From: a virus
Direction: 5' to 3' (one strand)
IMG/VR virus record: IMGVR_UViG_3300050821_007392
Coordinates: 1 to 38,630 of that record
DNA: 38,630 nt
The notes beneath the pieces were generated by a model, which did not search any database, was not told where the DNA came from, and was given only the letters and a program-made list of their open reading frames with translations. Position numbers and translations under genes: made by a program. Within the stretch, counting starts at the first letter, position 1. Each line of letters starts with the position of its first letter. Shown one piece after another: positions 734-36,156 of this stretch.

Positions 734-970
734 ATGTCAGATCATAATGACAATACTTATTATGAATGTTCGGATTTTATTCGATATTTATATCAAGAAG
801 GCGTCAGAAAAGGCGCACATATAAACCCCTCTTTCTATTCTGAAATTATAAAATTCGCCAAAAGCCCAGACGGTCGTAATGCATATCAAAAATTTATTTC
901 AATAAATCCTGGAAAATTTGGCATTTCTTCATTTAAAAAAATTACACCTAAAAGGATGACACACCCATGA
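734..970 (+). CDS. Hypothetical protein, 78 aa
   Basis: Unrecognised. AAAGGAAT precedes ATG 734. It looks like a small soluble protein with an aromatic N-terminal half and a basic C-terminal end (KKITPKR). Its stop overlaps the start of the initiator gene by 4 bp (967-970), so the two are probably translationally coupled and may act together in replication. Confidence 0.7.
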   Translation: MSDHNDNTYYECSDFIRYLYQEGVRKGAHINPSFYSEIIKFAKSPDGRNAYQKFISINPGKFGISSFKKITPKRMTHP

Positions 971-1773
971 GTATTGAAAAAAACAATAAAAATACATTGG
1001 TTCATGAGGATGGTGGATTTACCACTGCGCTTAATGAAACGATTCAAAATATAAAACATACCGGCGCTTTAGGTTTATATATTTATTTGGCGTCAATGCC
1101 TCCTGATTGGGATATTTGCAAAAATCAGCTTCAAGACCATTTCGGCTGCGGAAAAGAACACATGAATACATGCTTTAAATATTTGAAAGATATAGGTGCA
1201 ATTGAAGTAATAATGAATCGAAATGAAAAAGGTCAATCCATAGGTTGGAACACCATTTTAAAGAGGAAAATAAATATACAATCTGTACCATATATCCAGA
1301 AACCGGAAAACCCGAATTCTGGACAATTTACCAGAAACCGGAAAACCCAGATTCTGGGTTTCCAAGAATCTGGGAAACCCGCACTAATAAAAGAAACAAC
1401 AAAAACAAAAGAAATAAAGAGAAAAAAAACAAATAAGGAAACCCCTTCTGTTTCTGTTTTTTCTAATTCTGTTTCTATTCGTTTTCACCTCGATTCGATT
1501 ATAAAAAATAGGAGCCTTCAGTTATCTGACGAAGTGATTAAAGAGATTATGTTTTACATTGGTGAAGAGAAGGATTTTGATACCGTTATTAAAAAAATTA
1601 ACATTGCTCTGAAAGCGATAAGAAACGGTAAGTGGAAAACGCCCTATGGATTCAATACCAATCCCAATAGCTCTACTCCACCAACACGTATAAAACCTGA
1701 AACTGTAGAAGAAAGAAACGAGCGCTATAGACTTGAGCGTGAAATGAATATGAGAAAAAGAAATTCACAATAA
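967..1773 (+). CDS. O-like phage replication initiator with winged-helix N-terminus, 268 aa
   Basis: The N-terminal part (about residues 20-90) reads as a winged-helix DNA-binding domain: a helix-rich segment, then a recognition helix near FGCGKEHMNTCFKYLKDIGAI. A low-complexity linker (about 105-165) lies over the DNA iterons and A-rich tract, and a basic helical C-terminal domain follows. This is the layout of the lambda O gene, where the origin lies in the linker-coding DNA. The expected role is to bind the iterons, open the A-rich tract and recruit a helicase or loader. No P or DnaC-like loader was recognised nearby; the helicase at 32137 is a candidate partner. Confidence 0.75.
   Translation: MSIEKNNKNTLVHEDGGFTTALNETIQNIKHTGALGLYIYLASMPPDWDICKNQLQDHFGCGKEHMNTCFKYLKDIGAIEVIMNRNEKGQSIGWNTILKRKINIQSVPYIQKPENPNSGQFTRNRKTQILGFQESGKPALIKETTKTKEIKRKKTNKETPSVSVFSNSVSIRFHLDSIIKNRSLQLSDEVIKEIMFYIGEEKDFDTVIKKINIALKAIRNGKWKTPYGFNTNPNSSTPPTRIKPETVEERNERYRLEREMNMRKRNSQ
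1296..1380. repeat. Iteron cluster inside the initiator gene (candidate origin)
   Basis: Two 27-bp repeats, 1296-1322 and 1331-1357, differ at only two bases and start 35 bp apart. Each is bounded by CCAGAA and TTCTGG. The second runs into a 10-bp inverted repeat, CCCAGATTCT (1346-1355) with AGAATCTGGG (1365-1374), and GGGTTTCC (1356-1363) pairs with GGAAACCC (1373-1380). Repeated binding sites inside an initiator gene are the hallmark of lambdoid origins. Confidence 0.75.
1386..1440. other. A-rich tract next to the iterons (candidate unwinding element)
   Basis: About 55 bp, almost only A with scattered G, C and T on the plus strand, directly follows the iterons. In lambda ori an AT-rich tract with the same strand asymmetry follows the iterons and melts first. 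The role here is inferred from that parallel. Confidence 0.55.
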
Positions 1774-11554: not shown

Positions 11555-11629
11555 TCCGAGATAGTTCAGTGGCAGAACGGAGCGCTGTTAACGCTTATGT
11601 CCTAGGTTCAAATCCTAGTCTCGGAGCCA
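11555..11629 (+). tRNA. tRNA-Asn (anticodon GTT), CCA encoded
   Basis: Acceptor TCCGAGA (11555-11561) pairs with TCTCGGA (11619-11625), then G discriminator and CCA (11627-11629). The D arm contains AGTTCAGTGGCAGAAC, the anticodon loop CTGTTAA lies between AGCG and CGCT, and the T arm is CTAGGTTCAAATCCTAG. All arms are intact. It lies between the portal-side gene train and the capsid promoter. It may boost Asn decoding in the Asn-rich virion proteins, or replace a cleaved host tRNA (inference). Confidence 0.95.
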
Positions 11630-17406: not shown

Positions 17407-18042
17407 ATGTCATGGTTATCTGAATTATTTCATGGCGGTAAAAATCCCGCTGATGTAGCACAGCCGTATCTAGAAAAGATTCCAGGTGCTGTAAATCCTT
17501 ATTATCAGCCTTATATCAATCAGGGTCAGCAAGCAAATCAAGGATTGATGGAGCAATACGGTCATTTGATTAATAACCCAAATGATATGTATTCCCAGTT
17601 TGGTCAAGGCTATAAGCAATCACCTGGTTATCAATTTAAATTAAATCAAGCCTTGCAAGCGGCTGGGAATGCAGCTGCTGCTGGTGGTATGGCGGGCTCT
17701 CCTCAACATGAACAACAAAACATGCAAATTGGTAATGACATCGCCTCTCAGGATTTTAATGATTATATCAATCACATTTTGGGATTGTATGGAGTCGGAT
17801 TGCAAGGTCAACAAGGATTAGGACAACAAGGATTCCAGGCTTCGTTAGGTTATGGAGATATTTTGGGCTCTAATTTGGCGCAACAAGGTCAATTGGCTTA
17901 TGAGGGTCAGGCTGGACAAAATGCAAATAGAACAGGAATGTTCAACAACCTGATTAGTCTGGGTGGAACTTTAGGTGGCTCATATCTTGGTAAACCAGGT
18001 TCTAGTCAACCAAACCTTCTACCCAACCGATCTTACGGTTAA
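17407..18042 (+). CDS. Candidate DNA-ejection protein (gp7-like), 211 aa
   Basis: Gly/Ala/Gln-rich (NQGQQANQGLMEQYG, AGNAAAAGGMAGSP, QQGQLAYEGQAGQNANRT), a composition shared by small ejection proteins of P22-type phages. It stands first of three genes in the P22 ejection position. GGAGTT precedes the ATG. A hydrophobic glycine-rich end (NLISLGGTLGGSYLG) may insert in membrane. Assignment by composition and order. Confidence 0.6.
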   Translation: MSWLSELFHGGKNPADVAQPYLEKIPGAVNPYYQPYINQGQQANQGLMEQYGHLINNPNDMYSQFGQGYKQSPGYQFKLNQALQAAGNAAAAGGMAGSPQHEQQNMQIGNDIASQDFNDYINHILGLYGVGLQGQQGLGQQGFQASLGYGDILGSNLAQQGQLAYEGQAGQNANRTGMFNNLISLGGTLGGSYLGKPGSSQPNLLPNRSYG

Positions 18043-18051
18043 GGATGAATC

Positions 18052-19227
18052 ATGCCTATTAATTATCCACAATTTAGAAGATTGAATGCTGCTGAAACTG
18101 GAGGATTTGGAGGAGTTGACCTTGCAGGTTCGCTTCGTTCTGGTTTGCAGAATGCTAATGCGATTCAGGAGGCTCGATTTAAACCGCAACAAATGCAAGA
18201 ACAGATTAGAAGCCAAGAACTTGCTAATAAGATTAATGAGGCAAAGGCACAATATGCTCCTGAGCAAGAATTAGCAAACTTAAAATATAAACAAGCAGGA
18301 ATAGGACATTTAGGTGCTCAAACAAGAAATATTGAAGCCGAAATGGGGCTGCTTCCATATAGACAAAAATTAATACAAGCACAGACTTCAAGAGCGGAGC
18401 AATTAGCGAATCAACCTTATGGAGGAAATTTAACTGGTATAGCTCAAGAAGCATTAGGTATTGCTCAATTAACAGGTCAAGACCCTAAAGAGGTAGCTCA
18501 AAAATTATATCAGAATAAATTACAACAAGCAGATGCATTGAATGATTATAGAAAATCTTTGATTCAAATGGCTCCAAAAAAAGCTTCGACTCAACTTGCA
18601 AAGCTACAGCAAGAAGAACAAGAAGTTCAACAAGGATTTTTGCCTGGTTCAAATGGTCAAGTGAGATTAAACAAAGATCAGCAACAAAGTTTAAGTGGAC
18701 AATATAAACTTGCGCGACAAAAACTTAGTAGTGATGTAGATACCAGAAAAAAATTATTATACGCCACTAACCTAGATAAAACTTTGGACAATATAAATGT
18801 AGATGATTTAACACAATATAGCGGTATTGCTGGCGGATTAGAGAAAAAAATAGCTGAAGGCAAATCTTTGAGTGGTGGAGAAGAAAAGAAATATGAAGCA
18901 TATCAAAAGTCTTTGACTGCTACGAAATTATTAGCAAAACAAGTTAGGCAATTTTATGGTGATTCTATTACTCCAAGTATTCAGGAAAAATTAGGCGAAC
19001 TTACCAATCCAGCTTCATGGAAATTAAATCCTAAAGTTGCTAAACAGAACTTTAATCAATTTAAATCTATCGTGCATCAAGAAACACAAACATATCGAGA
19101 TGCGTTACAGGGTAATGATGTTTATAGAAATGCTCCCAAAGGAAATAATAATTCTGTTCATGAAACCAAAGAATTAAATGGTAAAACCTATATGAAAGTG
19201 GATGGGGAATGGTATGAGTTACTCTAA
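18052..19227 (+). CDS. Candidate DNA-ejection protein (gp20-like), 391 aa
   Basis: Gln- and Lys-rich helical protein with coiled-coil stretches (about 40-160 and 190-250). It follows the gp7-like gene by 9 bp. This corresponds in position and length to P22 gp20 (471 aa), which is ejected with the DNA. No enzyme motif was seen. Overlaps the next gene by 14 bp. Confidence 0.6.
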   Translation: MPINYPQFRRLNAAETGGFGGVDLAGSLRSGLQNANAIQEARFKPQQMQEQIRSQELANKINEAKAQYAPEQELANLKYKQAGIGHLGAQTRNIEAEMGLLPYRQKLIQAQTSRAEQLANQPYGGNLTGIAQEALGIAQLTGQDPKEVAQKLYQNKLQQADALNDYRKSLIQMAPKKASTQLAKLQQEEQEVQQGFLPGSNGQVRLNKDQQQSLSGQYKLARQKLSSDVDTRKKLLYATNLDKTLDNINVDDLTQYSGIAGGLEKKIAEGKSLSGGEEKKYEAYQKSLTATKLLAKQVRQFYGDSITPSIQEKLGELTNPASWKLNPKVAKQNFNQFKSIVHQETQTYRDALQGNDVYRNAPKGNNNSVHETKELNGKTYMKVDGEWYELL

Positions 19228-21406
19228 AGTTAACGATCCATCAATTATCGAACAACTTAATAAAAAATCAAAAATGAAAGTAGTTGATCCAAATTTATTG
19301 GCTCAATTGAATGGCGATGAATCACAAGATGATTCTTTATTAACTAGACTTGGCAATTCAGCCGGAGAATTTAATCAATTTGTCGAAAAAATACCAAGAA
19401 ATTTAGCTATAGGATTAGCAGAAGGCGGCAGAAATATAGCAAACACACCTCATAATCTTGCCAATTTAGTGGGCGCTGGAGAATATGTACCAAATTTTGC
19501 ACCACCTGAATATGACTATACTCAAGCATTCGGAGCCAAGGAACCCGCTACACTATCTGATAAGTTAATCCGTGGTTTAGCTCAATATGCGCCAGCATTC
19601 GCTTTACCTGGAGCAAATTTGGGCCGTGCAGGAGAGACAATTTCATCAATTCCTAAAGTTGGTGGGTTTTTAGGTGAGGCAGCTTCTCAAGCTGTTCCAC
19701 AAGCAGCTTTTGGGGTAACACAAAATCAAAATCCTTTGGTTGGTGCTGCTGAGGGTGGATTAGGTAGTTTGGCCGGTAGTGCAATTGGGAAAGGTATTGA
19801 GAAAGGAATCAATGCACTTAGACCTTCGCAAATATTAAGAGGAGAATTATCACCTGAAGAGTTGGCAAAAAATCTTGAATTAACTAAAGGAACTGAAACC
19901 AACTTAGGCGAAATAATTGAAAGTCCTTCATTAAAACGCTTATATGAAAATGTATTGCCTCATGTATTGGGCTCTGGTTCCGAAAAAACAATGCAACGTA
20001 ATACATCAAATATATTGAAGAAAGGCGATGAATTATTAACTAAAATTTCTGGAAAAACTCAACCTGAAGATTATGGGATAAAAATACAAGAAGCTTTAAA
20101 GCAATCAGCAAAAGATATTGAGAAAGTGAAAAATGAAAAATTTTCAAAGGTGAATGATTTTGCTAAAGAAGCAAAAGTAACTACAGATAGAAGTAATTTA
20201 AGAAATGCAGCCAAAGAAATCTTACATCAAATTGAATCTGATCCTGATTTATCTAAATTTACAAATCCATCCGATATTAAGTTAATAAAAGATATCGCAT
20301 TCAACGGTTTGAAAGAGGCTAATTTATCCTCTAAAGGTAAAAAAACATACGAAGGAAATTCAAATATATCAGGTAAAAAAATAAAAGAAGAATTAGATCC
20401 AATTACCGGTGAACCTATAAAGCCAATAGAGTTTAATGAAAAATCATCAGTTAATTTACCGAAAACCATGCATCCCGGGGAATTTAGTCCTATTACGGGC
20501 AAAAGAATTGAAAATAAAAACAATTATTCTCTTAAAAATACAGATATTTTAAGAGGTAAAATAGGTGAAATGGCGCATGAGGCTTTTATAAAAGGTGAAA
20601 AGCCAAAGGGTTCAATTTATCAAAAATTAAAACAAGCTTTAGAAAAAGATGTTGATCAAGCAATTAAACATTCATCAAGCGAACAACTTAAAAAAGCGCA
20701 CAAAGATGCAATGCAATTTTATAAAAATGAATATGCACCATATGAAGACCCTGATATTAGAAAATTTATTAAACAAGGAGGTGATCCAGATTTAATAATA
20801 AGTCATTTTATTAAGGGCGGTAAAAATGATAGAGCTACCCTTTTGACAAAATTATCAAAAGGGCTGCTTCAAGAACCAAATGGAACAAAAAACCTTCTAG
20901 CAGCGTCATATTTCTCTCGAGCAATTGATAATGACGGGAAGTTGAACCCGCTTAAATTAAGTACACTTTATCATAATTTAGGCAAAAATCAACGTAAAGC
21001 TTTATTTGGAGATACAGCAACAGCGAATGAATTTAAAAATTATATGGATTTAGTTAATAAAAACAAAGAAGGGTTTAATTTAATGTTTAATCCAAAAACT
21101 GGAGCAAGGAATACCACATTATTAAGCCACATTGGGACTTTGATTACAGGAGGTTTGACTGGAAGTTTACCAGGATTTGCAGGAACTCTCTTGGCCTCTG
21201 GATTAGCCGGAAAAGGAGCAACAAAATTATTAACTTCACCAAAATATAGAGAAAAATTAGTGAATGCCATGATTAAAAATAAACAAATTGAATTACCTAA
21301 GAATTCTTTACCTAAAGGAATGGCAGTTCAACAAGGATTGTCTGGTAATGATACAGAACAAAAACCTTTAGAATTAGAACTCATTGGTAAACGCAGAAAA
21401 GATTGA
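19214..21406 (+). CDS. Candidate DNA-ejection protein (gp16-like), 730 aa
   Basis: The largest ejection gene. N-terminal 200 residues contain Ala/Gly-rich amphipathic segments (NLAIGLAEGGRNIANTPHNLANL, LAQYAPAFALPGANLG); then long charged helices; near the end another Gly-rich stretch (TGSLPGFAGTLLASGLAG) that could cross a membrane. P22 gp16 is 609 aa and acts in the membrane. ATG 19214 has GGGGA upstream; 19202 is alternative. A short internal repeat, DPITGEPI and SPITGKRI, lies near 400-430. Confidence 0.65.
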   Translation: MSYSKVNDPSIIEQLNKKSKMKVVDPNLLAQLNGDESQDDSLLTRLGNSAGEFNQFVEKIPRNLAIGLAEGGRNIANTPHNLANLVGAGEYVPNFAPPEYDYTQAFGAKEPATLSDKLIRGLAQYAPAFALPGANLGRAGETISSIPKVGGFLGEAASQAVPQAAFGVTQNQNPLVGAAEGGLGSLAGSAIGKGIEKGINALRPSQILRGELSPEELAKNLELTKGTETNLGEIIESPSLKRLYENVLPHVLGSGSEKTMQRNTSNILKKGDELLTKISGKTQPEDYGIKIQEALKQSAKDIEKVKNEKFSKVNDFAKEAKVTTDRSNLRNAAKEILHQIESDPDLSKFTNPSDIKLIKDIAFNGLKEANLSSKGKKTYEGNSNISGKKIKEELDPITGEPIKPIEFNEKSSVNLPKTMHPGEFSPITGKRIENKNNYSLKNTDILRGKIGEMAHEAFIKGEKPKGSIYQKLKQALEKDVDQAIKHSSSEQLKKAHKDAMQFYKNEYAPYEDPDIRKFIKQGGDPDLIISHFIKGGKNDRATLLTKLSKGLLQEPNGTKNLLAASYFSRAIDNDGKLNPLKLSTLYHNLGKNQRKALFGDTATANEFKNYMDLVNKNKEGFNLMFNPKTGARNTTLLSHIGTLITGGLTGSLPGFAGTLLASGLAGKGATKLLTSPKYREKLVNAMIKNKQIELPKNSLPKGMAVQQGLSGNDTEQKPLELELIGKRRKD

Positions 21407-21423: not shown

Positions 21424-21492
21424 AAGCCGGGTCAACGGGCGCCAACCCTACCGGCTTATACAACTAACAGGACTACAGGAATATTATATCTA
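21424..21492 (+). promoter_or_regulatory. Hairpin and ACAACTAACA leader before the second initiator
   Basis: AAGCCGG (21424-21430) pairs with CCGGCTT (21451-21457), with a GGCGCC palindrome in the loop. It may terminate the ejection operon. ACAACTAACA (21460-21469) follows, the same 10-mer as at 711-720, and in both places AGGAAT and an AT-rich stretch precede the start codon. Confidence 0.5.
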
Positions 21493-22017
21493 ATGAGTAT
21501 CGAATTAACAACTAGTGTTTTATCAATTCAAGATTTAACCCAATCAGCTAAATTCTTATTAACTGTTTTATGTTTTAGAGCAAATCAATTTCATGAGGTT
21601 TATTCCGAAATTAAACGATTATCCTTGGATTGTTCTTGTAGTATTAAAACGATAGAACGCGCATTAAAAGAATTACGTGATAAAAAATATTTGTCTTATA
21701 CGGGAAAATTAGCACCGAATTCAAAATCAATTCCAATTTATAGTATAAATTTAACGCACGGACAAATTGAGGGTGGTTTAAAACAACGCACGGACAATTT
21801 GTCTTTAACGGACGGACAAATTGGGGATTTACGGACGGACAAATTGGGTATACGGATAAACAATATATATAAAGACAATAAGAAAGACATAGATAATTTA
21901 TTTGAACCAACTCAAGAAGAAAAGAATGATGTAGCATATTATTTAAAAAATGCTCTTCCAATTACAGATAAGTTACAGACTACTTATTTATGGTTAATAG
22001 AAAATGGGTATTGCTAA
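21493..22017 (+). CDS. Second initiator-like winged-helix protein, 174 aa
   Basis: Residues about 10-75 are a helix-turn-helix_36-type domain (SAKFLLTVLCFRANQ, then KRLSLDCSCSIKTIERALKELRDKKYLSY), as in phage O-like and plasmid initiators. The DNA for the middle linker holds four ACGGACAAATTG-type iterons and then an AT-rich tract, the same layout as the 967-1773 gene. Both proteins start MSIE. It is shorter than the first, so a second initiator, a replication control protein or a remnant are all possible. It sits alone between ejection and tail genes. Confidence 0.7.
   Translation: MSIELTTSVLSIQDLTQSAKFLLTVLCFRANQFHEVYSEIKRLSLDCSCSIKTIERALKELRDKKYLSYTGKLAPNSKSIPIYSINLTHGQIEGGLKQRTDNLSLTDGQIGDLRTDKLGIRINNIYKDNKKDIDNLFEPTQEEKNDVAYYLKNALPITDKLQTTYLWLIENGYC
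21758..21846. repeat. Iteron cluster inside the second initiator-like gene
   Basis: Four 12-bp units: ACGGACAAATTG at 21758-21769, 21812-21823 and 21835-21846, and ACGGACAATTTG at 21790-21801, with start-to-start spacings of 32, 22 and 23 bp, about two to three helical turns. A degenerate unit (ACGGATAAA) follows, then the AT-rich stretch to about 21900. This is consistent with an origin or autoregulatory binding array. Confidence 0.75.
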
Positions 22018-22055: not shown

Positions 22056-22084
22056 TACATAATACAAAACGGTAAGGACACCGT

Positions 22085-24268
22085 ATGGCTTTGAATGCCG
22101 CTGTAATCATGCCGCCGCTCCAGCAGGTGATTTTTGATAAAACATTGCAGACCTTCCTAACTAATGGAAAGGTCTATTTCTGGGAAGACGCAAACCGAAC
22201 AATACCAAAGGATGTCTATACTTTAACTGGTACAGGCCCTGGTTCGTATACTTATGTTTTATTGGGCCCTGTTTTGACGCTTTCTGGAATTGGTTCATAC
22301 ATTGATAGTTCGGGTGGCAACATTGCAGTTTATTTGTGGCCGTTTACTGGTTCACCTAATGACATGCCTCCTTCTACAACAGCTAAAAACTATTACATTA
22401 CGGTATATAGTTCAACTGGCGTTTTTCAATTTGATATTCCAAATTGGCCTGGGGTAAGTCAGGGTGCATCACCCATAAATATTGCAGATACCACAGGTAA
22501 TGTTATACAAAATGGTCAATTTGTACTGGTTGATTTTCCTACATCGTCCACGCAATTTGTTCCATTTAATATCAATACATCAGGGGTCAATGTTTCAACA
22601 GAAATAGCACCAGATTGGAGTATAATAACTACTGGAACCGGTCAATTTAGTGTTTATCAAAAAGTGATAATTGATAGTACCGCACCGGGTAATCCGTATT
22701 CAGCTTTAGGTATTGCGTCCACCGGATATACGCAACCGCTTATATTAAGACAGCGCTTGCTTGGTCCCAGAATATTAGCAATGAACCTCACTGATAGCGG
22801 TTTTGTATCGGGAACATTTATTGCACAAAGTCTAACGGGTGGTAATATCCCATTAACAATGAATTACACCGCTTCAATTACCGGAACAATTCAACAAATT
22901 TGCACGGGTACGACAACATCGGCAAATTTCACCAGAATTTTTAACTCTACTGCCGTTCAAATTGCAAACCCAGGTGGGGGAAGTGGTTTTGTCGATATAA
23001 CTATAGTTATTCCTGCAAATACTTCAATACAAATTTCATGTATCCAATTATGTGGTGTTGCTAATGCGCAGCAGAGTGTAGATTATTTGCAAGAAACGCA
23101 AGAAGAGCAAGTTTCTGGATTATTTGCCTATTATCGTCCTCCTTTAAATTTTAAACCTATTCCAAGTCTTCTTACAGGTTGGGATTTTCCACTAAACCCC
23201 CAGCAATTTGGTATTACAGACGTTACGACCACACCTCAATATATTTGGGATCAAACAATAATGGCAAGCGTGGTAGGTCAAGTTGCAGTGTCTACATTAA
23301 ATACAACTGGAGCTATGTTATTAGTCAATCAAAATCCCAATGAATGTTTTTACATGCTTCAATATTTATCTGGACCTGAAGCGGTAAAAACCACCCTTTC
23401 GCAGCTTTCAGTAAATATAAACGCATATTCTTTGGGTGCATCTGACGTAAAAGTCAGTGTATTTCTTTATTATTCCACTACAAATGGTACGATTCCTTTA
23501 TTATCAAGTGGTAATCCAACAATAGGAACAATAACGAATGCAGCAACCGGTCAATTTACTTTAGGACCAGGTGGTAGCGGATGGGCTCCTATACCTCAGG
23601 CATTAGGTTTTTCAAATAATTCGCTATTAAATTTTAATACACTTACAGATTTACCATTTACTGGATGGAATGGCATTGCAAATTTTGGAATGGCAACCAC
23701 ACAAAATTTTGCTATTGTTGTTACTTTTGTAACACCTACCGTTGGTACATCAACCGTGGTAAATTCAATCTCGTGTGTGCCTGGACAAATTGCTACAAGA
23801 CCCGCTCCCCAGACTGAAGATGAAGTTTTTAGAGAATGTCAGTATTATTATGAGACAAGCTATAATTCACCCACTGCGGTAGGAACATCGAATGCAACTG
23901 GTGCTCTTTTTATTGAACAATCAAGTTTTTACAGTACAAATACGGTCTATGTATTTCCTACCCCATTCACAATAGATTTCAACGTAGTTAAAAGAGTCTC
24001 TCCTACTGTTACTTTATATAGTAAAGGAGGAACCATAAATAAAGTTCAATCGAATTTGATATTCACAGCACCAGGTAATGTTTTTACAATTACTACTGCG
24101 GAGCCTGCCGTATCAACTTGGAATGCTACAGTAGGATATAATAACGCTAATTATTTACCTGCTAATATTGCGGCTTTAGATAGTCAAACAACACTGAACG
24201 GAACGAATAATAATAGTGCTGGAATATATTTTCATTACATAGCAGACGCAAGACTCGGAAAGGTTTAA
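22085..24268 (+). CDS. Tail fibre or tailspike protein, 727 aa
   Basis: Probable receptor-binding virion protein. N-terminal part (PPLQQVIFDKTLQTFLTNGKVYFWEDANRTIPKDVYTL) is an attachment-type domain; a long low-charge beta region rich in Thr, Ser, Asn and Gly follows. The C-terminal QTEDEVFRECQYYYETSYNSPT is a motif often found where phage fibres carry a carbohydrate-binding domain. No endoglycosidase motif was evident. It replaces the P22 tailspike position. Confidence 0.78.
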   Translation: MALNAAVIMPPLQQVIFDKTLQTFLTNGKVYFWEDANRTIPKDVYTLTGTGPGSYTYVLLGPVLTLSGIGSYIDSSGGNIAVYLWPFTGSPNDMPPSTTAKNYYITVYSSTGVFQFDIPNWPGVSQGASPINIADTTGNVIQNGQFVLVDFPTSSTQFVPFNINTSGVNVSTEIAPDWSIITTGTGQFSVYQKVIIDSTAPGNPYSALGIASTGYTQPLILRQRLLGPRILAMNLTDSGFVSGTFIAQSLTGGNIPLTMNYTASITGTIQQICTGTTTSANFTRIFNSTAVQIANPGGGSGFVDITIVIPANTSIQISCIQLCGVANAQQSVDYLQETQEEQVSGLFAYYRPPLNFKPIPSLLTGWDFPLNPQQFGITDVTTTPQYIWDQTIMASVVGQVAVSTLNTTGAMLLVNQNPNECFYMLQYLSGPEAVKTTLSQLSVNINAYSLGASDVKVSVFLYYSTTNGTIPLLSSGNPTIGTITNAATGQFTLGPGGSGWAPIPQALGFSNNSLLNFNTLTDLPFTGWNGIANFGMATTQNFAIVVTFVTPTVGTSTVVNSISCVPGQIATRPAPQTEDEVFRECQYYYETSYNSPTAVGTSNATGALFIEQSSFYSTNTVYVFPTPFTIDFNVVKRVSPTVTLYSKGGTINKVQSNLIFTAPGNVFTITTAEPAVSTWNATVGYNNANYLPANIAALDSQTTLNGTNNNSAGIYFHYIADARLGKV

Positions 24269-35069: not shown

Positions 35070-35272
35070 ATCTTAAATCCCTCCAATTCATCTATCAACA
35101 TTCGTGATGCGGTATTTAAATCATCATGATAAGCATAGTAATGGGCACCTTCATAATGTTTTGGGTAATATTTTATACCCCATTGTTCGCCTATTTCTGC
35201 TGGATTAAACCGAATCATAATTACACCATTATGTTCATTTGCTTTTTGAACTAACCGCTCTAATTCTGTCAT
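35063..35272 (-). CDS. Hypothetical protein, 69 aa
   Basis: TELERLVQKANEHNGVIMIRFNPAEIGEQWGIKYYPKHYEG: an alpha/beta protein with a helix start, a strand and aromatic turns. It overlaps tnpB by 38 bp and the secreted-protein gene by 7 bp. A small soluble partner is possible. Unrecognised. Confidence 0.65.
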   Translation of the reverse strand: MTELERLVQKANEHNGVIMIRFNPAEIGEQWGIKYYPKHYEGAHYYAYHDDLNTASRMLIDELEGFKIW

Positions 35273-35630
35273 TTTTTAATTCCTTTTTATGTTCAATAGT
35301 TAATGGATGTCGTTCAATTTGCTTTGGTTCAAATCCTGATAATAAAATTACCAATTCCTCTGGAGAAATGTTTTCAACTTCGTGAAGCATTTCGCGTACT
35401 TTAAATTTGCATTTGTCTAGGCGCTTATAATATAGAACAAAACCGTTTCCGTCCCAGAACAAGCATTTTATCTTATCTCGATTTGTATTATAAAATACGT
35501 AAATACTGCCGTCGTGGATGTGGGTTTCATTTTTTTGCTGAATGAATCGAGACAATCCATCTATTGATAATCTTAAATCCATCGGTTTTGAAGCTATAAA
35601 TACAGCTCTATTTTCATACGGTATCAACAT
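35235..35630 (-). CDS. tnpB: IS66-type accessory protein TnpB, 131 aa
   Basis: Close match to IS66 Orf2: MLIPYENRAVFIASKPMDLRLSIDGL, then IYVFYNTNRDKIKCLFWDGNGFVLYYKRL (MDLR at 17-20, the WDG block at 59-71). In IS66 elements TnpA, TnpB and the transposase TnpC form one operon. Here there is no tnpC and no IS ends, and the pair sits inside the phage recombination operon. Role here unknown; possibly domesticated. Confidence 0.9.
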   Translation of the reverse strand: MLIPYENRAVFIASKPMDLRLSIDGLSRFIQQKNETHIHDGSIYVFYNTNRDKIKCLFWDGNGFVLYYKRLDKCKFKVREMLHEVENISPEELVILLSGFEPKQIERHPLTIEHKKELKNDRIRAVSSKSK

Positions 35631-35631
35631 C

Positions 35632-36156
35632 TTATATATCCCTTAGTAATTCTATTATCTTAATGATTTTTATTGGTTCAATATTTGGGCTAACTTTAAC
35701 TTTTATTCCTTTGGATATGATTATCTCTAGGTCGTTTTGTTCTTTTATTATCTGCTGTTCAGGTTCATGCGTTTCTTGGTGCGCAATTTCTTTATTAGAT
35801 ACTTGTATAAAATTCATACTAACACCATCCCGATCCACTTTAGATTTATTTTCATACTCATTAATCAATTGATGATAATATGTATGTCGAATGTAATTTG
35901 CTAAGTCAGTTCTGTTAACTTTCCATTTTTTAGCGCATTTATTTAAACTTAAACCATTTTTGTGATTGCTTAATGCTGGTTCCATTTTTTTTATAAAATC
36001 AGATGTTAATTTTTTGGTCATTCTGATTGTATATTTAAAATTATTAAATCTTATGTAATTAATATTGTTTTTTGCACAAAATTTTCTTTGCGTTAACTCT
36101 GAATTTTCCCATTCCTTTAATTTTAAATATAAATATATTATTTCATCGTCGTTCAT
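35632..36156 (-). CDS. tnpA: IS66 TnpA-like protein, 174 aa
   Basis: An N-terminal helix-turn-helix part (QRKFCAKNNINYIRFNNFKY, then CAKKWKVNRTDLANYIRH) and the TnpA-typical C-terminus DLEIIISKGIKVKVSPNIEPIKIIKIIELL. Two HTH-like blocks are more than the usual TnpA (about 100-140 aa), so it may be extended. One base separates its stop from the tnpB start. Its ATG overlaps the zinc-protein stop (ATGA). Confidence 0.75.
   Translation of the reverse strand: MNDDEIIYLYLKLKEWENSELTQRKFCAKNNINYIRFNNFKYTIRMTKKLTSDFIKKMEPALSNHKNGLSLNKCAKKWKVNRTDLANYIRHTYYHQLINEYENKSKVDRDGVSMNFIQVSNKEIAHQETHEPEQQIIKEQNDLEIIISKGIKVKVSPNIEPIKIIKIIELLRDI

Follow-up and report, generated by a model that had tools for sequence, protein, structure and literature searches.

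Phage origins usually come one per initiator module and lie in the early region. What, then, is an initiator-like gene with direct repeats of its own doing between the ejection and tail genes of a phage? The question was raised by the window (the whole stretch of viral DNA analysed here, 38,630 bp), in which a first-pass annotation had seen two initiator/iteron units within one genome. Because the first 98 bp of the window are the same as its last 98 bp, it represents a complete, circularly permuted phage genome of ~38.53 kb. Both units are indeed present in this complete genome, and the arrangement recurs in a sister phage. The gene order is podovirus-like, with an Sf6-type small terminase (4152), a large terminase (5081), genes at the portal (6973) and capsid (12596) positions, a conserved tail-type protein that we named gp10-like and used as a lineage marker (15481), three ejection genes starting at 17407, 18052 and 19202 (17407..21406, + strand) and a tail gene (22085..24268, + strand). 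A leftward recombination arm encodes RecT, a DUF3799 nuclease and a helicase. Among the window genes scanned, no integrase or CI-like repressor was recognised, and no partition or maintenance genes were identified. Sibling prophages with terminases ~60% identical to that of the window reside in Legionellales genomes, making Legionellales candidate hosts of the window phage. The genome also carries a tRNA-Asn (GTT) gene between the portal and capsid regions (11555-11629, +), a phage-encoded cold-shock domain protein in the early region (2240-2440, +; PF00313, 1.8e-20) and, in the leftward arm (35235-36156, -), an IS66 Orf2-like gene (PF05717, 2.4e-28) beside a 174-aa ORF, next to which no full IS66 transposase was recognised.

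The primary early initiator (967..1773, +; 268 aa) matches DnaD-like/initiation families of PHROG, and the linker of its gene holds two to three repeats (CCAGAAACCGGAAAACCCNNATTCTGG, ~27 bp) at 1296-1322 and 1331-1357 (1296..1357, +), with a weaker third copy at 1363. The late gene (21493..22017, +) is not part of this early replication operon. Its isolation, which had been pointed out before, is evident from the flanking ejection (17407..21406) and tail (22085..24268) genes, and no helicase-loader gene adjoins it.

The late gene encodes a 174-aa mini-initiator composed of an HTH_36 winged-helix DNA-binding domain (aa 1-86; 21493..21750, +), a linker whose coding sequence contains the iterons, and a 54-aa C-terminal piece with two predicted helices (aa 121-174; 21853..22014, +), which is conserved in a homologue on contig L002. 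The winged helix had been called initiator-type, and this description is well supported, as the protein matched Pfam HTH_36 above the curated cut-off (E=6e-9) and the PHROG replication-initiation families 270 (1e-9), 428 (2.7e-9) and 1032 (1.2e-8), as well as the O-like PHROG 391 (5.7e-6). All PHROG initiator matches corresponded to the N-terminal parts of these families. An AlphaFold model gave an H-H-H-strand-strand secondary structure, yet with a mean pLDDT of only 43 it was too weak for a fold search. No match was obtained against PDB sequences, and no nuclease domain was detected in the Pfam and PHROG scans.

Within the linker DNA we found four ~22-bp direct repeats starting at 21750, 21782, 21804 and 21827, that is, at distances of 32, 22 and 23 bp or about 3, 2 and 2 helical turns, which agrees with the copy number and the two- to three-turn spacing given in the first-pass annotation. 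The core of these repeats, (T)ACGSACGGACAAATTG, begins at 21754, 21786, 21808 and 21831 and defines, all on the + strand, iteron 1 (ACGCACGGACAAATTG, 21754..21769), iteron 2 (ACGCACGGACAATTTG, 21786..21801), iteron 3 (ACGGACGGACAAATTG, 21808..21823) and iteron 4 (likewise ACGGACGGACAAATTG, 21831..21846). Since they lie in codon phases 0, 2, 0 and 2, respectively, the repetition belongs to the DNA and not to the protein, which points to selection on the DNA. With four copies, the array is the strongest short direct-repeat array of the genome (best of 1541 windows), and three or more copies occur at only one other place, in a tail gene around 26.0 kb that contains a repeat. The 16-mer consensus had four matches in the window, compared with 0.39 expected, and no shuffle reached four. 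The repeats are followed, as had been noted, by an AT-rich tract (21850..21950, no strand assigned; 78% AT over 101 bp), a candidate unwinding element that is coding in the initiator frame and whose first 50 bp rank in the top 1.7% of the 50-bp windows of the genome. The likeness to the layout of the early gene also holds, and the two to three ~27-bp repeats in the linker of the latter are unrelated to the late iterons. No DnaA boxes were found near 21.8 kb in the window cassette or in the cassette of L002. GC skew makes no turn at the late cassette and turns near 30 kb, but as it follows gene orientation, it is uninformative on the origin. The first-pass annotation had further suggested looking for the array in plasmids or satellites. 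Neither the late protein nor the array was found in plasmids or isolated phages, and the 39 matches of the 16-mer in viral contigs were all single copies in 39 contigs, without any array; among viral contigs, plasmids and phages, no rival carrying the window's 16-mer array was found.

The only close homologue of the late protein in viral contigs is encoded by L002 (174 aa, 63% amino acid identity). It occupies the same slot, directly after the ejection genes, and has the same length and the same last residues as the window protein. Between the two, dN/dS amounted to about 0.16 in the winged helix (0.157/0.981), about 1.2 in the linker (0.99/0.84) and about 0.44 in the C-terminal piece (0.28/0.64). 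Judged by these ratios, the winged helix and the C-terminus are under purifying selection. The L002 linker carries four copies based on AACCACCCCAATT, with a 31-22-23 spacing and in more than one codon phase, and this array is completely unlike that of the window. Low dN/dS in the protein domains combined with a different linker array indicates that the protein has been maintained while the array was exchanged. The first-pass annotation had made its reading depend on conservation of the repeats among homologues; the literal ACGGACAAATTG is absent from L002, while the position, copy number and spacing of the repeats were kept. An apparent concentration of winged-helix substitutions in helices 2-3 between the window and L002 was discarded as not significant (Fisher p=0.27). 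L002 overlaps contig G003 with 100% identity over 2509 bp, and G003 encodes a separate early initiator of 301 aa with its own in-gene repeats, so that two initiators per genome are present in at least two phages. L002 also has an extra gene, for endonuclease VII, in a late slot (L002:2321-3022).

A second type of late cassette was found in two further contigs. In L021, a different HTH protein of 116 aa is encoded in the slot that separates the last ejection gene from the tail gene; over 76 aa, it shares 37% identity with the early initiator of the window (967-1773). L080, whose terminase is 76% identical to that of the window, encodes a homologue of this protein (117 aa, 78% identical) at a late-region site that lies a little upstream of the corresponding slot and ahead of where gp10 is expected. 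Both ORFs stop at a common point inside the first iteron, and the non-coding DNA that follows has three ACCACTCGGCC iterons and a further copy in inverted orientation, as well as a pair of perfect DnaA boxes that are kept between the iterons at a distance of 18 bp, and then becomes AT-rich. The array is nearly invariant, and the sequence on both of its flanks diverges. Moreover, the late iteron CCACTCGGCCAAAA of L021 and L080 also lies inside the 360-aa early initiator of the sibling phage L077 (terminase 57%), in whose contig such DnaA boxes are absent. Most relatives are represented by contig fragments, and those of L021 and L080 do not include the early region; a search of the bin of the L021 phage did not recover its primary (early) region. 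Each late type has two members on the contigs compared (window and L002; L021 and L080), and the late HTH gene is absent from the slot in ten further relatives in which the slot can be read (L003, L004, L008, L025, L027-L031 and prophage G143), which shows the cassette to be dispensable. On the contigs compared here, the late cassette is optional and recurrent and comprises at least two unrelated types. In L021, a tandem array of about seven 10-bp units (TAAGAACACT-type; L021:13958-14027) additionally separates the late HTH cassette from the tail gene, and L080 has an extra gene in a late slot, for the small subunit of ribonucleotide reductase (L080:9398-10468, -).

How do these short proteins relate to the ordinary initiators of the lineage? 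The full-length initiators of L077 and G118 have a common C-terminal domain (45% over 87 aa), which is lacking in the window protein, in its L002 homologue and in the 116- and 117-aa proteins. The 54-aa C-terminus of the 174-aa type, kept in L002, matches nothing in the full-length initiators. In prophage G143, the initiator is directly followed by a lambda P homologue (PF06992, 2.5e-15), so the ordinary replicon of the lineage can be of the lambda O-P kind. Short initiator forms also occur in real replication/recombination modules, as seen in the unrelated phage L020, where an HTH_36 protein of 151 aa that lacks a C-terminal domain and carries two CGGACAAATTG iterons is encoded in a cluster with YqaJ and RusA. 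Pairs of CGGACAAATTG lie inside HTH/initiator-like genes of the unrelated phages L016, L018 and L020; those in L017 and L019 were dismissed as low-complexity coding repeats. G143, a Legionellales prophage of the same lineage, has its ends inside its own initiator gene (L111:590-1207 and L112:2542-2919; about 1,738,540 and 1,774,180 on the chromosome). The gene is split by a shared 17-bp core, AAGTCTGATTATTGTGA, into an N-terminal part of 205 aa (HTH and repeats) and a C-terminal ORF of 91 aa; this core forms one half of a palindrome, and the initiator gene of L013 has a site closely resembling it. Integration of the G143 type would inactivate the initiator.

Just upstream of the late gene lies a leftward sigma70-like promoter, TTGTTA-17-TATAAT (21483..21511, - strand), a candidate for driving a short OOP-like RNA, with a minus-strand terminator-like hairpin about 35 nt beyond it (21429..21448, - strand). 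With a promoter match of at least 10/12 and a terminator within 5-90 nt as the criterion, this is the only place in the window genome with a leftward promoter-terminator pair of such quality. L002 has the same layout with a different sequence (0/200 shuffles for each of the two), and the pair is absent in L021 and L080. A short leftward RNA is a candidate product of this site, predicted from consensus promoter and terminator matches that are weak evidence by themselves. Of the hairpin leader described in the first-pass annotation, the plus-strand RNA fold proved weak (z -0.9), but the minus-strand terminator-like hairpin is located there. The exact 10-mer ACAACTAACA, whose only two occurrences precede the early operon (711) and the late gene (21460), was rejected as a shared leader motif, because other pairs of leaders in the genome share 11-13-mers. 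Ahead of the tail gene start, a small hairpin (22069-22090; ACGGT-AAGGAC-ACCGT) has the ribosome-binding AAGGA in its loop, and a hairpin of similar shape with another stem sequence (CAGTAAGGACGCTG) is found at L003:12040-12060.

Our leading, though tentative, reading is that the late feature is an optional late-region mini-replicon cassette, consisting of a truncated lambda-O-type initiator with its own origin, and that it most likely serves as an accessory origin. We infer iteron binding, strand opening, helicase loading and timing at the late cassette as follows. The mini-initiator would bind the late iterons via its winged helix and, once bound, would bend or open the adjacent AT-rich tract; the helicase would be supplied through the short C-terminal piece in the window phage and L002, and through host DnaA on the DnaA boxes in L021 and L080. 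The result would be an origin independent of the early one. An accessory origin is supported by the occurrence of an initiator-type winged helix alongside an early initiator in the same complete genome, and by the L002 homologue, which occupies the same slot, shows purifying selection and has a different four-copy array, in a phage that likewise has an early initiator of its own. The L021/L080 type of cassette, with its common early stop, its nearly invariant array and its DnaA boxes, and the short initiator of L020 also speak for it. Several observations argue against it, namely the lack of the full-length C-terminal domain and of an adjoining helicase-loader gene, the lack of DnaA boxes in the window and L002 cassettes, the empty slot in ten relatives, the missing GC-skew turn, and the fact that each late type has two members, with L021 and L080 being fragments without the early region.

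The closest known layout is that of lambda O and ori-lambda, where a winged-helix initiator gene likewise contains four direct repeats with an AT-rich tract immediately downstream. The leftward promoter-to-terminator unit predicted from sequence beside the window's late gene resembles pO-oop-tO of lambda, and the lambda P homologue after the G143 initiator conforms to the O-P replicons of lambdoid phages. Unlike lambda O, however, the window gene is late, lies between ejection and tail genes and is the second initiator gene of its genome, and its 174-aa product has neither the usual C-terminal domain nor a P-like neighbour. Two initiators in one phage are known from phage-plasmids, such as P1 with RepA and RepL. 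Like theta plasmids, the cassettes of L021 and L080 bring together iterons, DnaA boxes and AT-rich DNA, whereas the window cassette differs from iteron plasmid replicons in having no DnaA boxes, no partition or maintenance genes among the genes scanned, and a protein too short for known plasmid Reps.

We slightly prefer the accessory origin to interference with sibling phages because AT-rich DNA is kept, DnaA boxes are present in two phages, and short initiators occur in real modules. Replication interference, which we consider possible but less probable, is nevertheless close behind, given the truncated proteins, the fast-changing arrays and the late iterons that match the early gene of a sibling. 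The cassette would then comprise a dominant-negative initiator DNA-binding domain and decoy iterons from a sibling phage, with the late protein occupying or titrating the origin of a co-infecting phage or satellite that has the same iterons; the carrier's early origin would be immune, as its iterons differ. Reduction of the late proteins to a DNA-binding domain plus array, the match of CCACTCGGCCAAAA in L021 and L080 to the L077 early initiator gene, the unrelatedness of the window's late and early iterons, and the accessory distribution and array turnover are all consistent with such a role. There are also precedents. Plasmid-borne lambda iterons together with oop silence rep-lambda phages (PMC3349717), and additional iterons beside a short RNA transcribed leftward could similarly silence a phage with the same iterons, although the lambda effect is that of an engineered plasmid, the late cassette would be a natural one that encodes a DNA-binding protein of its own, and a sibling relation was seen only for L021/L080 versus L077. 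In Odn of ICP1, the initiator-like DNA-binding domain of a phage gene is used against the origin of a satellite (PMC8263062). There too, this domain is separate from the phage's own initiator, and the iteron specificity would be common with the origin of another element; in contrast to Odn, the late protein has no nuclease domain and its cassette carries its own iterons. Against interference, the DnaA boxes conserved in L021 and L080, but absent from the L077 contig, would be needless for a decoy and fit an origin better; viral contigs, plasmids and phages yielded no rival that carries the window's array; and an inhibitor expressed late would act late. A related scenario, which we rate about as doubtful and if anything slightly more so, would involve mobile late cassettes for origin warfare, in which truncated initiators and arrays captured from siblings suppress or hijack the replication of siblings that share these iterons in their early origin, which would drive a fast turnover of iteron/initiator specificities.

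It is unlikely that the late gene is an autoregulated DNA-binding moron, whose product would bind the array inside its gene and thereby control transcription of that gene or of late neighbours, without any role in replication. A small winged-helix protein in a late slot, with possible transcription signals of its own and the unique leftward promoter-terminator pair just upstream, would suit such a gene. All significant family matches are nonetheless replication initiators, the array adjoins an AT-rich tract within the gene rather than a promoter, L021 and L080 have DnaA boxes, and the neighbours of the slot manage without the late gene in other relatives. Finally, a replicon captured from a plasmid, satellite or phage and left as a functionless relic, one of the options put forward initially, would account for the truncated initiators, the accessory distribution and the lack of DnaA boxes or a loader beside the window copy, but appears very improbable and largely refuted by the selection on the winged helix (dN/dS 0.16) and C-terminus (0.44), the same length and last residues of both homologues, and the common early stop of the short ORFs and near-invariant non-coding array in L021 and L080.

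If the accessory-origin or the interference reading is true, the late cassette would give a phage of 38.5 kb a second programmed origin or provide a counterpart in nature to the interference with the lambda origin that has long been known, respectively. In either case, turnover of specificity can be seen directly at this site, where initiators that are 63% identical occupy the same position and the linker array has been replaced wholesale with its copy number and spacing kept.
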